Both the position numbers and the translations under genes were made by a program. Below, one piece after another: positions 3,393 to 24,153 of a stretch of 39,032 nucleotides of DNA. Numbering within the stretch: the stretch's first letter is position 1; each line of letters starts with the position of its first letter. Below the pieces are notes generated by a model that did no database searches, was not told where the DNA came from, and was given only the letters and a program-made list of their open reading frames with translations. This DNA is from Rhizomucor pusillus (lineage: Eukaryota > Mucoromycota > Mucoromycetes > Mucorales > Lichtheimiaceae), in contig FWWN02000155.1 of assembly GCA_900175165.2 (NCBI GenBank), forward strand, positions 1 through 39,032, in the 5' to 3' direction.

Positions 3393-4069
3393 GAGCATCT
3401 CCACTGTCCGAATCTGCATACCGTGCTGCCACATTGTAACAGGAGTTGAAAACGTGCTGCAGGCATTGAATCGAAATAGAAATTCCCAGTTGCATTCTCG
3501 TTCTTTTCCACATGGTCCTATCAATCACATAGTTGCTGATCCAACCAATAAGGTCCTCGTCGGTAATAGCAACTGCAGGATAAAGTTTTGCCACCGACAG
3601 CATGGACGCACATTGCTTTGGGTTGCGTTAGATGACTGCAGAGCAGGAAAACCTTCAGGAGCGTTCCATTTTTCCGGGAGAAAAAGTATGCACTGCACAC
3701 CATGGTTACGGGCGTGTAGCGCGCAGGCGATCATAGATGATCGAAAGAACAGCACCTGAATACTCAATAGGAGAGGCGACAGATCCAAAACAGATATTTT
3801 TACTCCTCAAAGCCATCTGGAAAAAAGGGAGGTAGAGGTAAGCAAGCTTCCCTGAAAAGTTGGAAACATGCTGCCATGCAGCACTGTGTGCTTTTGCAAA
3901 CGAAAAAGGTTCTTCTCCGTAAGAAAGAGGGGTTTGGTAACAAGACGGATAAGGAGCATGGAGCGACAAGTCTAGGCCATGCAATAGCAAGGTATATAAA
4001 CCATCGAAGAATAAGAGTCTAAAACGATACTTCCCAATCCACCTTCTATACTCCACTCGTAATTTCGTA
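3393..4069. other. intergenic upstream of module gene 4070
   Basis: No coding region that I can support; overlapping short open frames on both strands have no recognisable content. The last 80 nt contain the TATATAAA box of the 4070 gene. Confidence 0.5.
3993..4000 (+). promoter_or_regulatory. TATA box of the 4070 gene
   Basis: TATATAAA about 70 nt before the ATG at 4070. Confidence 0.6.
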
Positions 4070-4873
4070 ATGCGCGCCATACTCACTACTTCCATTGCAG
4101 CCTTTTTGGCTACTATGTCTGTTGTCTCTGCCGTGCCCGGTGGCTACTCCAGTGGTGGTGACACTGCCTACATCGATAATTCCAACACCAACAGCCCTCA
4201 CTTGGTGAATGCTCCAGTCACCGCTCCTATCAAGGTCGATGGTGATGTTAAAGTGAAAGCAAACGTCGCAAGTCCCCATAAAGTCAAGCGTTGCAACAAG
4301 AGCCACGAGAACGTCAAGAAATTGTTCCCTCAAGGCAAATGCGGTGACGGACAGGTCTACATTGATAACTCCAACAAGAACTCCCCCAGCCTTATCAATG
4401 CTCCTGTCAACCTCCCAGTCGATGCTTGCGTTCCTATTGAAATCATTGCCAACGTCCTGAGCGGCAAGATCCAGAAGCGCTGGGATGGCCAAGATAACGA
4501 CGGCGAAGGCGATCCAAAGGATAGCGACGAAGGCGAGGAGTCCCACGACGACGGTGACCACCAAGGGGGCAGCGGTCATCAAGGCGGCGGCAGCAACGGT
4601 GATTATCCCGGCCATGGCGGTAGCGGCTACAACGGCGAAGGTTCCGGTCCTTGCCCTCCAGGCTTCGCCTATGTCGATAACTCGAACACAAACTCCGGTC
4701 ACTTGGTCAACCTTCCAGTCACCGCGCCTGTCAAAGCTTGTGTTCCCGTGAAAGCCGACGTCAATGTTCTCAGCAAGCGCAAAGAGAAATCGGAACACGA
4801 AACTGACGAAAATGAAAAGGACGAGAACGAAAAGGATGAAAAAGAAAATACCAAGAAAGATGATGAGCAGTAA
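4070..4873 (+). CDS. secreted three-module precursor with Kex2-type sites (267 aa)
   Basis: Single exon. Signal peptide at residues 1-21. Three copies of a module starting Y-I/V-D-N-S-N lie at about 34-66, 97-130 and 201-235. Each is followed by a Lys-Arg pair (73-74, 136-137, 236-237), so Kex2 cleavage would release one module per peptide. Modules 2 and 3 contain P-V-x-x-P-V-x-A-C-V-P, with Cys120 and Cys224. Other cysteines are at 75, 91 and 195. Modules 2 and 3 are separated by an acidic, Gly/His/Ser-rich linker (about 138-195). The tail (237-267) is Glu/Lys/Asp-rich. The module is the same as the one repeated four times in the 5911 gene, so the two are paralogues. I know no named fungal family with this module. 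Resemblance to chaplin domains (L-V-N/Q-x-P-V-x-x-P-V-x-x-C) and to Kex2-processed repellents suggests surface-active or assembling peptides; that is inference. Confidence 0.8.
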   Translation: MRAILTTSIAAFLATMSVVSAVPGGYSSGGDTAYIDNSNTNSPHLVNAPVTAPIKVDGDVKVKANVASPHKVKRCNKSHENVKKLFPQGKCGDGQVYIDNSNKNSPSLINAPVNLPVDACVPIEIIANVLSGKIQKRWDGQDNDGEGDPKDSDEGEESHDDGDHQGGSGHQGGGSNGDYPGHGGSGYNGEGSGPCPPGFAYVDNSNTNSGHLVNLPVTAPVKACVPVKADVNVLSKRKEKSEHETDENEKDENEKDEKENTKKDDEQ

Positions 4874-4962
4874 ATAGTGTGTCATCTCCATCTATTTTTC
4901 TGACGCTGTATGTCGAGTTTTCTCTCCTTCTATCTTCCACTTGTTTCAAGTAATCCTTTTTA

Positions 4963-5910: not shown

Positions 5911-6522
5911 ATGCGTTTTGTTACTATCACTTGCGCTATCTTGACTACTCTTTCTGCCATTAATGCTTTGCCAGTCCCTCAAGAAGGCGATTCCCTGGTT
6001 GTCGATAACTCCAACAGAAATTCCCCGCATCTTGTGAATGCTCCATTAAATGCACCCATCAAGATCGTTCCTGAGGTTGATGCCGATGTCAACTTGCTTA
6101 GCAACAAGCAGAACAAGCGCGACTCTCTGGTTGTCGATAACTCCAACAGAAATTCCCCGCATCTTGTCAATGCTCCATTAAATGCACCCATCAAGATCGT
6201 TCCTGAGGTTGATGCCGATGTCAACTTGCTTAGCAACAAGCAGAACAAGCGCGACTCTCTGGTTGTCGATAACTCCAACAGAAATTCCCCGCATCTTGTC
6301 AATGCTCCATTAAATGCACCCATCAAGGCCGTTCCTGAGGTTGATGCCGATGTCAACTTGCTTAGCAACAAGCAGAACAAGCGCGACTCTCTGGTTGTCG
6401 ATAACTCCAACAGAAATTCCCCGCATCTTGTCAATGCTCCATTAAATGCACCCGTCAAGCTCAATCCTGACGTTGATGTCAAAGCCGATATCCTAAGAAC
6501 TGAACATCAGGCGACGCATTAG
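5911..6522 (+). CDS. secreted Kex2-type repeat precursor, four tandem 44-aa modules (203 aa)
   Basis: Single exon. The signal peptide is residues 1-19 (Met-Arg start, cleavage likely after INA). Four tandem modules follow at 27-70, 71-114, 115-158 and 159-203. Modules 1-3 end in N-K-Q-N-K-R, so Lys-Arg pairs at 69-70, 113-114 and 157-158 would let Kex2 cut the precursor into four almost identical peptides. Modules 1 and 2 are identical in protein. Module 3 differs by one residue (I to A). Module 4 diverges after the P-V-K step and lacks the terminal KR. Each starts D-S-L-V-V-D-N-S-N and contains S-P-H-L-V-N-A-P-L-N-A-P. The mature peptides contain no Cys. It is paralogous to the 4070 gene. 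I infer a secreted peptide precursor (surface-coat or signalling peptides); the function is unknown. Confidence 0.85.
   Translation: MRFVTITCAILTTLSAINALPVPQEGDSLVVDNSNRNSPHLVNAPLNAPIKIVPEVDADVNLLSNKQNKRDSLVVDNSNRNSPHLVNAPLNAPIKIVPEVDADVNLLSNKQNKRDSLVVDNSNRNSPHLVNAPLNAPIKAVPEVDADVNLLSNKQNKRDSLVVDNSNRNSPHLVNAPLNAPVKLNPDVDVKADILRTEHQATH
5989..6474 (+). repeat. tandem 132-bp coding repeat, about 3.7 copies
   Basis: Units start at 5989, 6121, 6253 and 6385, each 132 bp (44 codons). Copies 1-3 differ by only a few bases, including third positions, which indicates recent duplication or ongoing homogenisation. The fourth copy matches for about 70 bp and then diverges. Confidence 0.9.
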
Positions 6523-7248: not shown

Positions 7249-7653
7249 ATGCGTTACAAAGCCAGTATCTTCATCATCGCTTTCATCGAAGGACTTTTGG
7301 TGCTTGCCAATGCTCATCCTGGCCCTAAAGCAACAGAGAAAGATCATCAATTACAGCAGCAATCAGATCCAAATGCAGTTGGCGCAGTCTCTGATGCAAA
7401 TGCAGCCCTGGATGTGGCCCAAACCGCCACCGGCAGTCTTCCTGGCGGAAACGCTGTCAGCATCGCTCATACTACAGTAGAACATGTAGCCAAAGACGGA
7501 GGAGGATTGAAGACTAGAGACCTATCTGGTGGTACCGATGAAAACGAACCAGACGAGGACGAACCGGATGAAAACGAACCCAGAGAGAAGCCACACGATG
7601 AACATGATCAAGCCGATGAGAACAACAGCAATGCGGAGCAAGCACAGCCGTAA
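7249..7653 (+). CDS. small secreted protein with acidic Pro-Asp-Glu tail (134 aa)
   Basis: Single exon. Residues 1-22 are a signal peptide (Met-Arg start, cleavage after ANA). The middle (about 30-85) is Ala/Val/Gly/Thr-rich and uncharged, with N-A-V-x-x-V-S-D-A-N-A-A features. A short basic site (K-T-R, 88-90) precedes an acidic tail with tandem D-E-N-E-P / D-E-D-E-P repeats at about 97-111 and then His/Asp/Glu-rich sequence. There is no Cys. The layout (signal peptide, neutral core of about 60 residues, basic site, acidic tail) matches the minus-strand gene at 24153-23827, although sequence identity is too low to claim homology by eye. AATAAA at 7700 supports the 3' end. I do not recognise a family and assign no function beyond likely secretion. 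Confidence 0.7.
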   Translation: MRYKASIFIIAFIEGLLVLANAHPGPKATEKDHQLQQQSDPNAVGAVSDANAALDVAQTATGSLPGGNAVSIAHTTVEHVAKDGGGLKTRDLSGGTDENEPDEDEPDENEPREKPHDEHDQADENNSNAEQAQP

Positions 7654-8553
7654 TACGATCTCTAGCATCATTAATTGGCATCGGTCATTTCTTGCTCTCA
7701 ATAAATAATAATTTCAACTTGTTTGCTGTCCAGCAATCACTGTTCCCAAGGAACTTATTGCTCTTGATAGTCCCTAATATTTCCACAGTGAAGGTGCTCC
7801 TTGCAGATAGCTTTTTGAAAGACGCATTGTTAACAAGTCTGAGACCGATCAATCATAGACTTATTTTCGTCTAGAACAGATTTTATGTAGAAATTATTAT
7901 GTTTCAAAGATGCTGATTTCAGATCTATGCTAGCAGAGACCTTTCTATATGATCATGTGACAAGCGAATGCATTATGCGTTATAAATGGATACAATAATC
8001 ACGTTTGATAAAGATTTTATACTCGTGTTCAATCAGAGAGCTTCTAAGTAACAAATTTGTATATTATTTTCGCTGTTTTCTTTGGATATCTCCCTCTCCT
8101 GAATAGCTTATTTGCAGCAGCCTACTTAAGTGATGCAAGTATACTACAGTGTGCATATGTCATATATCTCAAGCTCGGGAAAGCATATCGTTATGTTGAT
8201 CACTACAGCGCGAAGAAAAACCTTGACTTTTGAACTTGTCTCCGCAGAATTTTAGTTATCGAATCTAGACAGGGCATGTGCTCCAATGACTGGACATCCA
8301 AGCCAGATAAAATATATTCGAACCCGCATTTGTGCATCTATATAAGATGCAAGAGAAGATCGCATATATGGTTTTGGATTTAGGTAGACACTCGGTGGGA
8401 AGTGTATAAGCTCAAACCGGGAGCTATGATGGACGGACAGTGTGTGTTACCATAACGACTCTGAATCTGAGTCTCCCTTTCTCGCAGCCTTAAGATGCTG
8501 TCTCCTCTCTTCCAACTCGAACCACTCAAACTTGGTTAAAACATTGTCATTCA
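7654..8553. other. intergenic between 7249 gene and UCH gene
   Basis: No coding region I can support. It contains AATAAA at 7700-7705 (47 nt after the 7249 stop) and the promoter of the UCH gene. A TATATAAG at 8339-8346 is about 208 nt before that ATG and may or may not be used. Confidence 0.5.
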
Positions 8554-12284: not shown

Positions 12285-13472
12285 ATGCGTCTATTCATTC
12301 CTATTTCTCTTGCAGCCTTGGGCCTTTTAGCAGCTGTTCAATCTCATCCAGTGCATATTGCACAGTATGACTCGCAAGGCGTCATCTACAAACGTGAAGA
12401 CAGCAGCGCTGCACCCTCGCCTTCGTTCGATGCCTCTGGATGCACCCTTGTTCCAGACAAGAACAATACTTACACTTTCTCCTGCAACTCTACAGCCGCA
12501 GGTTCACAGCAGAGTAAGAAAAAGGCCGAAGATGATCAAGATGATGATGACAATGACGATGATGACGATGATGATGACGAAGAAGATGACGATAACGACG
12601 AAGAAGACGATGACGAAGACAAGGACGATAACGAGCCCGAGGAAGAGGACCAGGATGACGACGAAAACGGGGGTGGAAGTGAGGCTGGTGGAAGCAGTGA
12701 CGCTACTGCCAGCAACACGCCACAAAGTGGTGGATCGATTCTTGACGTTTTGAATGCGTTACGCAAGCGTAGTGGTCAAGAATCCGAAGAAGTGCAAACG
12801 TCACCAGAGCCTTCAGCTAATGACAGCGACAAAGACAAGTCTGATAAGAAAGCCAAAGAAGAAGAGCGCAAGGCGGCAGAGAAGAAATCTGAAGAAAGCA
12901 AAAAGGAAGATAGCAAGACTGGTGACAAAAGTTCCAAAGAAACCAAGGGCCAGGATCCCAAGTCTGATGACCGGGCTCCAGAAAGCAAAACTGATAAAGA
13001 CAAGAAAGCCGAAGTCCAGGAAAGCAAGGATGACGAGGCAAAGGTGCAGGATAAGCATTCTCCTAACGTGGAAATGAAGATTGCGGATCCCGCTCAAGCT
13101 GAAGCCACTGAGAATTCTGATCAAGCAGAAGCTACACCTGCCAACAAGTCACTGCACGAAGCCAAATACGTAGATAACACCGAAGAAAGCGCAACTGCTG
13201 GTCAGGACGAGGAAAAAGAAAGTGCACCTGCCGGTAAAGCAGAGGAAGAAGAAAACGGTACCGTTGACAATGGACAAGACGCTTCCTTGCCGGACTCAAC
13301 TACCGATGAGAGCGACAATGCAGAGAGCTCTGAAGAAGCAAATGACCAGCCAGAAGGTGATGAAGAGGAAGGTGACGATGATGACGATGACGATGACGAT
13401 GGCGATAACGAAGAAGACGAAGAAGAAGAAGACGAGGAAGAGGAGGATGAAGAAGATGAAGATGAAGATTAG
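12285..13472 (+). CDS. secreted hyper-acidic low-complexity protein (395 aa)
   Basis: Single exon. The signal peptide is residues 1-20 (Met-Arg start, cleavage after VQS). A Lys-Arg pair at 36-37 comes before a short segment with two cysteines (C-T-L-V-P ... T-F-S-C-N-S-T) and N-glycosylation sequons (N-N-T-Y, N-S-T). From about residue 84 an almost pure Asp/Glu run extends to about 127. A basic R-K-R site follows at 160-162. Then comes a Lys/Glu/Ser/Asp-rich central region (about 163-290), probably disordered, and a second Asp/Glu-only tail (about 363-395). No enzyme domain is visible. Such composition fits a polyanionic extracellular or wall-associated protein that could bind cations or basic proteins; that is inference. 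It shares the MR signal peptide and dibasic-site plan of the genes at 1147-7249. Low-complexity composition makes distant homology claims unsafe. Confidence 0.75.
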   Translation: MRLFIPISLAALGLLAAVQSHPVHIAQYDSQGVIYKREDSSAAPSPSFDASGCTLVPDKNNTYTFSCNSTAAGSQQSKKKAEDDQDDDDNDDDDDDDDEEDDDNDEEDDDEDKDDNEPEEEDQDDDENGGGSEAGGSSDATASNTPQSGGSILDVLNALRKRSGQESEEVQTSPEPSANDSDKDKSDKKAKEEERKAAEKKSEESKKEDSKTGDKSSKETKGQDPKSDDRAPESKTDKDKKAEVQESKDDEAKVQDKHSPNVEMKIADPAQAEATENSDQAEATPANKSLHEAKYVDNTEESATAGQDEEKESAPAGKAEEEENGTVDNGQDASLPDSTTDESDNAESSEEANDQPEGDEEEGDDDDDDDDDGDNEEDEEEEDEEEEDEEDEDED

Positions 13473-23826: not shown

Positions 23827-24153
23827 TTACACTTCGTCGTCTTCTCCTTCATCGTCATCTTCATTTTTGTCTTTGTCTTCTTCTTTATTTTTTTGCATTT
23901 CTTCTACGTGCTCGTCCCCATCTTCGTCCTTGTCGTCTGTTTCGCGTCTACGAAGCGCTTGCACTTCGTCCTTTTGGCTAACGGCATCCGCAATAGATTG
24001 AACAGTAACGTCTTTATTTTCTCGGGATATGATGGCAGCGGTGCGACCGTCTTTGGGAACATTAAGTTTTCCGCTAGTTTTGGTGATAGGTTTTGCTTGG
24101 ATCAAAACCGCTTGAAGGAGTGCAAGAATGATCAACGAGCGAAGGAAACGCAT
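23827..24153 (-). CDS. small secreted protein with acidic tail (108 aa)
   Basis: Minus-strand single-exon gene. I start at the ATG at 24153, where the product begins Met-Arg-Phe-Leu-Arg plus a hydrophobic core, with signal peptidase cleavage after residue 20. An in-frame ATG eight codons upstream (24177) would put polar residues in front of the signal peptide. Residues 21-66 are neutral to basic, a triple Arg (68-70) is a candidate processing site, and 71-108 are an Asp/Glu/Lys tail ending in an almost pure Asp/Glu run. There is no Cys. A TATAAAAA box lies about 70 nt upstream of the ATG. The plan and tail composition match the genes at 7249, 1147 and 12285, so I place it in the same group; true homology needs alignment. 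Function is unknown. Confidence 0.65.
   Translation of the reverse strand: MRFLRSLIILALLQAVLIQAKPITKTSGKLNVPKDGRTAAIISRENKDVTVQSIADAVSQKDEVQALRRRETDDKDEDGDEHVEEMQKNKEEDKDKNEDDDEGEDDEV

Follow-up and report, generated by a model that had tools for sequence, protein, structure and literature searches.

KEX2-processed repeat proteins (KEPs) carry a secretory-type N-terminus and at least three similar repeats separated by Lys-Arg (KR) pairs, and the repeats extend over most of the protein (PMC6339444, PMC7329392). As defined in PMC6339444, a KEP gives at least four fragments when cut after KR and contains at least three similar repeats, which make up at least 15% of the protein. The census in PMC7329392 (Umemura) covers 1461 strains, 1345 of them with KEPs, and arrives at 7878 of these proteins, sorted into 838 types and 2560 stand-alone ones, with 9.15 KEPs per Mucoromycota strain. 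Besides pheromones and mycotoxins, KEPs give rise to peptides whose function is unknown (PMC6339444, PMC7329392). Peptides of 9-24 residues are the commonest in most Dikarya, and Mucoromycota and Chytridiomycota also show larger ones (PMC6339444). Rep1 of Ustilago maydis is a repetitive secreted precursor from which amphipathic Kex2-cut peptides of 35-53 residues are released that form amyloid-like fibrils (PMC4617103). When kep genes were knocked out in Coprinopsis, no phenotype could be detected (PMC9769878), so a structural role is not general among KEPs.

The chaplins of Streptomyces are secreted modules of about 40 residues (PF03777; PMC3079736). Since one of them, ChpE, lacks both Cys (PMC3079736), membership in this family cannot be judged by the Cys pair alone. 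In the ascomycete Venturia, a chaplin-like secreted protein with 120 residues in its mature form and four Cys is reported to match chaplins with an e-value of 1e-17 (PMC5412055). Like the proteins described here, it is fungal, small, secreted and likened to bacterial chaplins, but the available part of its description does not mention a repeat precursor, which sets it apart (PMC5412055). The accessible portions of PMC3079736 and PMC4255298 contain nothing to the point on chaplin-like proteins in fungi.

The stretch of DNA analysed here (the window, 39,032 nucleotides of Rhizomucor pusillus) carries two adjacent genes for module-bearing proteins, the 5911 gene and, upstream of it, the paralogous 4070 gene, with the following features:

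4070..4873, plus strand: coding sequence of the paralogous precursor, a 267-residue protein with three diverged modules, five Cys and an acidic tail at its C-terminus
4160..4291, plus strand: module n1 of the 4070 gene, with KR at its end (4286-4291)
4343..4480, plus strand: module n2 of the 4070 gene, with KR at its end (4475-4480) and a Cys in the chaplin position
4655..4780, plus strand: module n3 of the 4070 gene, with KR at its end (4775-4780) and a Cys in the chaplin position; the best chaplin-like module
5911..6522, plus strand: coding sequence of the four-module precursor (ATG open reading frame, 203 residues, stop at 6522)
5911..5967, plus strand: probable signal peptide, residues about 1-19, from inspection and hydropathy only
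5989..6120, plus strand: module m1, residues 27-70, with KR at its end, from module comparison
6115..6120, plus strand: Lys-Arg site 1, residues 69-70
6121..6252, plus strand: module m2, residues 71-114, with KR at its end, from module comparison
6247..6252, plus strand: Lys-Arg site 2, residues 113-114
6253..6384, plus strand: module m3, residues 115-158, with KR at its end, from module comparison
6379..6384, plus strand: Lys-Arg site 3, residues 157-158
6385..6519, plus strand: module m4, residues 159-203, identical over its first 23 residues, then divergent, without KR

The first-pass annotation had described the 5911 gene as a precursor with a signal peptide that would release four near-identical 44-residue peptides. 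Its 203-residue frame was found exactly at 5911-6522 on the plus strand with an ATG start, and translation placed KR pairs at the three positions that had been given. The signal peptide stays a probable one: the N-terminus (..LSAINALPVPQ) is hydrophobic and signal-like by inspection and hydropathy, with a maximal 10-residue hydropathy of 2.20. Besides the three KR pairs, against 0.49 expected from composition, the protein has no further KR, RR, KK or RK pair. At the DNA level, the array is a 132-bp tandem unit in 3.7 copies with 96% matches, and its Tandem Repeats Finder score of 914 is the highest among 17 entries for the window, the other 16 of which score at most 88. As 132 bp corresponds to 44 codons, the repeat stays in frame and places a KR at each junction.

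The modules m1, m2 and m3 differ from one another by 0-1 residues and 2-5 nt, so for these three the description as near-identical stands. It does not extend to m4, which is 64% identical to m1, differs from each of m1-m3 in 16 of 44 residues and lacks the KR. The precursor would therefore yield three near-identical peptides and one that is half different, and the first fragment would be longer than 44 residues unless trimmed, as it keeps LPVPQEG or similar at its N-terminus. The DNA of m4 equals that of m2 and m3 over 69 nt, after which 27-28 of 63 nt differ; this sharp boundary is likely the trace of unequal crossing-over or gene conversion. We considered positive selection on m4, since dN/dS between m1-m3 and m4 exceeds 1, and rejected it because every difference lies beyond the identical 69 nt, a distribution that fits crossing-over or conversion. 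On the minus strand, an open frame of 114 residues (5979-6323) lies opposite the 5911 gene and mirrors its repeats, and one of 281 residues (4046-4891) lies opposite the 4070 gene; both are probably by-products of codon use.

Module comparison confirmed that the 4070 gene encodes three related modules, which are 43-54% identical to m1. Its three KR pairs (residues 73-74, 136-137 and 236-237; 0.34 expected from composition) follow one after each module, and the linkers between the modules bear no resemblance to anything in the 5911 protein. Over the last 40 residues of the protein, 40% are D or E. All seven modules of the two genes share the invariant pattern D-N-S-N-x-N-S-x-x-L-x-N-x-P-x-x-x-P, and six of the seven, the exception being m4, end in KR despite the unrelated linkers. 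The distance from the conserved Ser to the KR is four residues in m1-m3, n1 and n2 and zero in n3. Between m and n modules, dN/dS amounts to 0.18-0.53 (NG86, 32 codons, 12 pairs; rough values, as dS of 0.87-2.15 is saturated), indicating that the protein sequence of the module has been kept. Together with the KR spacing, these ratios are the strongest sign in the sequence that selection has maintained both the module and the position of the KR. Elsewhere in the window, four open reading frames (1147-1473, 7249-7653 and 12285-13472 on the plus strand, 23827-24153 on the minus strand) have N-termini that look signal-like by eye and acidic C-terminal tails; they span 108-395 residues, with 30-88% D or E over the last 40, and three of the four contain KR or RR. 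The gene at 7249 had no paralogue in the R. pusillus genome at E 0.01.

A kexin is encoded in the same genome. The open reading frame on contig C93 contains a P domain (PF01483, 97 bits against a cut-off of 21) and the C-terminal part of a subtilase domain (PF00082, profile positions 230-288 of 288), followed, as judged by eye, by a region rich in Ser and Thr, a membrane-spanning segment and a tail of acidic residues. A second proprotein-convertase P domain lies at C232:46824-47142 in two pieces, with a stop within the first, and this gene likely contains an intron. In the presence of a kexin, R. pusillus resembles organisms that bear KEPs. Cutting the 5911 protein after KR would give four fragments, three with near-identical modules and one with a half-identical module, and the repeats occupy residues 27-203 of 203. 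The claim of a Kex2-type precursor is thus supported by the KR architecture kept in a diverged paralogue and by the kexin gene, and it is highly probable, from the sequence, that the 5911 gene encodes a KEP precursor. The additional claim of an undescribed system was overstated, since Kex2-processed repeat proteins, the coat-forming Rep1 included, have already been described; on the sequence data, this is a known precursor class with a module that could be assigned to no family.

Searches for relatives covered the genome of R. pusillus (24.45 Mb in 353 contigs, among which the window is contig C175) and several databases. In three genome searches, modules were found only in the 5911 and 4070 genes, counts that are lower bounds because copies may be concealed by introns and scoring was confined to the top candidates. 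A single 43-residue module used as query at E up to 10 recovered all seven modules and nothing further, and the 5911 gene itself was the sole full-length match to its protein. Neither protein exceeded any cut-off in Pfam or NCBIfam. The best Pfam match listed for 5911, DUF6466 (22.7 bits against a cut-off of 25, E 0.00014, residues 133-162), was read as a repeat artefact because module m1 alone matches no family, and a match to MapA (16.7 against a cut-off of 300) was set aside in the same way. The PDB, searched by sequence with the 4070 protein, gave 0 matches. In a set of 5.8 billion proteins, the 5911 protein found only P0001, which comes from another data source, possibly the same organism, and agrees with the 4070 protein in 266 of 267 residues, and the module profile A3 found none among 2308 candidates. 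A second copy of the 5911 protein was not returned from this set, so this assembly is the sole source for the repeat array; as the set may hold few fungi, these results are only weak evidence of orphan status. As it stands, the module family could not be matched to a described one from its sequence, and the two genes appear as an orphan KEP pair among many. To our knowledge, no KEP with a repeat of the 5911 type is known.

The alternation of hydrophobic and polar residues, put forward earlier as a sign of beta-rich assembly, is real in the three modules examined: the 180-degree hydrophobic moment, one of five angles tried, was matched by only 12 of 3000 shuffles for m1, 5 for n2 and 4 for n3, tests that are not independent because the modules are homologous. 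By GRAVY, m1 (-0.37), m4 (-0.58) and n1 (-0.35) are hydrophilic, and n2 (0.22) and n3 (0.32) are mildly hydrophobic. AlphaFold2 was uninformative, with mean pLDDT of 36.0 and 54.9 in two models and a pLDDT below 50 for every strand drawn in the 203-residue model. By sequence, the peptides are not hydrophobin-like, in line with the first-pass annotation. Fungal hydrophobins have an eight-Cys pattern, and there are five Cys in the 4070 protein and none after residue 8 in the 5911 protein. A search of the genome for the hydrophobin family PF01185 was empty and equally silent in all 14 control genomes.

Taken together, we favor the reading, at a rough probability of 0.45, that the two genes encode Kex2-processed secreted precursors whose peptides coat the hyphae in the manner of Rep1; once the KEP class is accepted, a coat function would have about an even chance. 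Both adjacent genes would encode secreted precursors from which the signal peptide is removed. The kexin would then cut after every Lys-Arg, and a Kex1-type carboxypeptidase would strip the KR. The 5911 precursor would thereby give one peptide of 45 residues and three of about 42, the foremost of which would carry a few extra residues at its N-terminus; the 4070 precursor would give three larger fragments with one module apiece plus the acidic tail. These linear, alternating peptides would most likely assemble as beta-strands on the surface of the hyphae or at an air-water interface, where the Cys-bearing and more hydrophobic n2 and n3 may anchor or nucleate the assembly and the 5911 peptides may make up its bulk.

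The coat reading draws support from the released size, which fits the Rep1 repellent peptides, from the alternation beyond shuffles in m1, n2 and n3, from the positive GRAVY of n2 and n3, and from the resemblance of the N-terminal module half to the amyloid-forming chaplins, which exceeds that of shuffles. It is weakened by the hydrophilic character of m1, m4 and n1, unlike the chaplin cores, by the failure of AlphaFold2 to give a confident structure, by the lack of 180-degree alternation in the chaplin core compared, and by the kep knockouts in Coprinopsis that showed no phenotype (PMC9769878). The likeness to Rep1 lies in alternating peptides from one repetitive secreted precursor, here of 42-45 residues and thus within the Rep1 size range, although the GRAVY of m1 is negative; Rep1 has 12 imperfect repeats and forms amyloid-like fibrils (PMC4617103), whereas the precursors described here have four and three modules and are known from sequence alone.

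The strongest competitor, still an unlikely one, is that the Kex2-released peptides are soluble and act as signals or as agents against competing microbes or the host, with no coat being formed. The range of functions among KEP products (PMC6339444, PMC7329392) is in line with this, as is the polar and acidic nature of m1 (pI 4.75), and the copy number and homogenization of m1-m3 would fit the dosage of a single product. At 42-45 residues, however, the peptides exceed the 9-24-residue class of most Dikarya, though larger ones also occur in Mucoromycota (PMC6339444), and the alternation and the chaplin-like core point to assembly. The dipeptides following the KR are DS at each 5911 site and CN, WD and KE in the 4070 protein, so the XA/XP typical of STE13 processing is absent. 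In agreement with the earlier statement that the module is not a known pheromone, the sequence is not pheromone-like, and the peptides are long.

Rather improbable is a second alternative, compatible with a coat, in which the modules are diverged chaplins, acquired by transfer from bacterial domains or sharing their origin with fungal chaplin-like proteins. For the 4070 protein, Pfam lists a single family, ChpA-C (PF03777), whose score of 9.2 bits stays below the cut-off of 21. Module n3 alone reached 13.2 bits, also below the cut-off, and the 5911 protein had no PF03777 match and so fails the Pfam gathering test for the chaplin family. For closer comparison, a chaplin set was assembled from bacterial records, namely one annotated plasmid gene and the 80 best among 375 related loci, with Streptomyces in the title of all except one. 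Cores were taken from the 80 of these 81 with an SPG start and enough length; 79 were distinct, and the GRAVY of the cores compared was 0.30 to 0.88. The modules n2 and n3 align with chaplins without gaps, as seen for SGHLVNLPVTAPVKAC (n3) with SGNLVQAPIHIPLNVC (P0002, a Streptomyces chaplin), and share SxxLVxxPVxxPVxxC with the Cys in register, the register having been chosen by eye.

In this by-eye register, the 28 columns gave z values of 5.2 for n3, 4.6 for n2 and n1, 4.0 for m1 and 3.7 for m4. The signal lies in columns 1-16 (SGNxVQxPxxxPxNxC), a short motif for which 0-3 of 5000 shuffles scored as high in each of the five modules, again with the register set by eye. Columns 17-28 did not rise above shuffles in four of five modules (n1 143 of 5000, the others at least 603 of 5000). 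The chaplin C-terminal half, CGNTVxVIGLLNPxFGNxC, is unrecognizable here, with n2 and n3 keeping its first Cys only, and, unlike most chaplins but like ChpE, the 5911 modules are free of Cys. When modules and chaplins were aligned with hhalign, the score of 19.86 was reached by 0 of 300 column shuffles, but the probability was 28%, the best shuffle scored 19.14 and the reversed alignment 15.49.

Profile searches gave a similarly divided picture. With a chaplin HMM, the 4070 protein ranked second of 743 open reading frames from the window and four loci (8.0 bits), behind the frame in L005, a locus preselected by PF03777 (19.9 bits); an unrelated-looking 62-residue frame reached 6.6 bits, and the 5911 protein was outside the 12 best of the 743. 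Per 2000 shuffles, 1 scored as high as n3, 6 as n2, 8 as n1 and 34 as m1. In the opposite direction, a module HMM scored a median of 9.0 bits over the 79 chaplins, matched by 1 of 1580 shuffled chaplins. The P0002 core does not alternate at 180 degrees (749 of 3000 shuffles as high), so alternation and chaplin likeness are not one signal.

The PF03777 search of the R. pusillus genome pointed to one place, C229:191779-191838 (19.4 bits, E 0.025). It falls in L005, where an 86-residue frame (1330-1587, about 191608-191865 on C229) has a signal-like N-terminus and a later part, KVCGDTVDVVSLLDPTAREKC, with a chaplin C-half (VCGDTVDVVSLLDPTAREKC) that scores 20.1 bits in Pfam against the cut-off of 21 (E 0.0006). 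In the 5.8-billion protein set, this frame found only its own near-copy P0003 from another data source. A signal-bearing frame of this kind in the genome would suit a chaplin origin, as would the Venturia protein (PMC5412055) and the dispensability of Cys in ChpE (PMC3079736). L005 matches the opposite half of the chaplin domain from the modules; the two, however, did not find each other in searches of the genome. Nor did the Streptomyces chaplin P0002, in a run without control, find anything in this genome, L005 included. Since PF03777 also gave a below-cut-off match in E. coli among the 14 control genomes, weak scores such as that of L005 may be due to chance.

We therefore regard the chaplin likeness as a short pattern that appears real in the sequence, most marked in the n modules that bear Cys and faint in those of 5911; it remains a lead, and it fits descent or convergence alike and does not decide between them. 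Improbable, on present evidence, is a fungal counterpart of chaplins produced via Kex2, in which Cys-bearing 4070 peptides would anchor a bulk of Cys-free 5911 peptides in an amyloid hyphal coat, in a fungus that may lack hydrophobins, whether by convergence or by descent. We know of no chaplin that is released from a Kex2 repeat precursor.

That the proteins remain uncut, as intact repeat proteins of the wall with incidental KR pairs, is quite improbable. Cleavage is a prediction, and the KR counts behind it are small, but the recurrence of KR after six of the seven modules in both genes, between linkers that are unrelated, and the kexin encoded in the genome argue against it, and by eye no wall-anchor motif was noticed. 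Ustiloxin cores are short and those of the 5911 and 4070 genes long, which speaks against a ustiloxin-type RiPP precursor with cores cyclised by UstYa-type enzymes, the least probable explanation by far; UstYa (DUF3328) was not listed among the 15 Pfam-scanned of the 39 window frames of at least 100 residues, and a genome search for PF11807 was empty, with equally silent controls. Its attraction is the precursor architecture common to KEP-type RiPPs (PMC7329392).

Should the likeness to chaplins go beyond convergence, it would connect the coats of streptomycete and fungal aerial growth. If, as we favor, the peptides of the two Kex2-type precursors coat the hyphae, they would represent one more case of the Rep1 strategy and offer a testable answer to how water-repellent aerial structures arise in a fungus without obvious hydrophobins.
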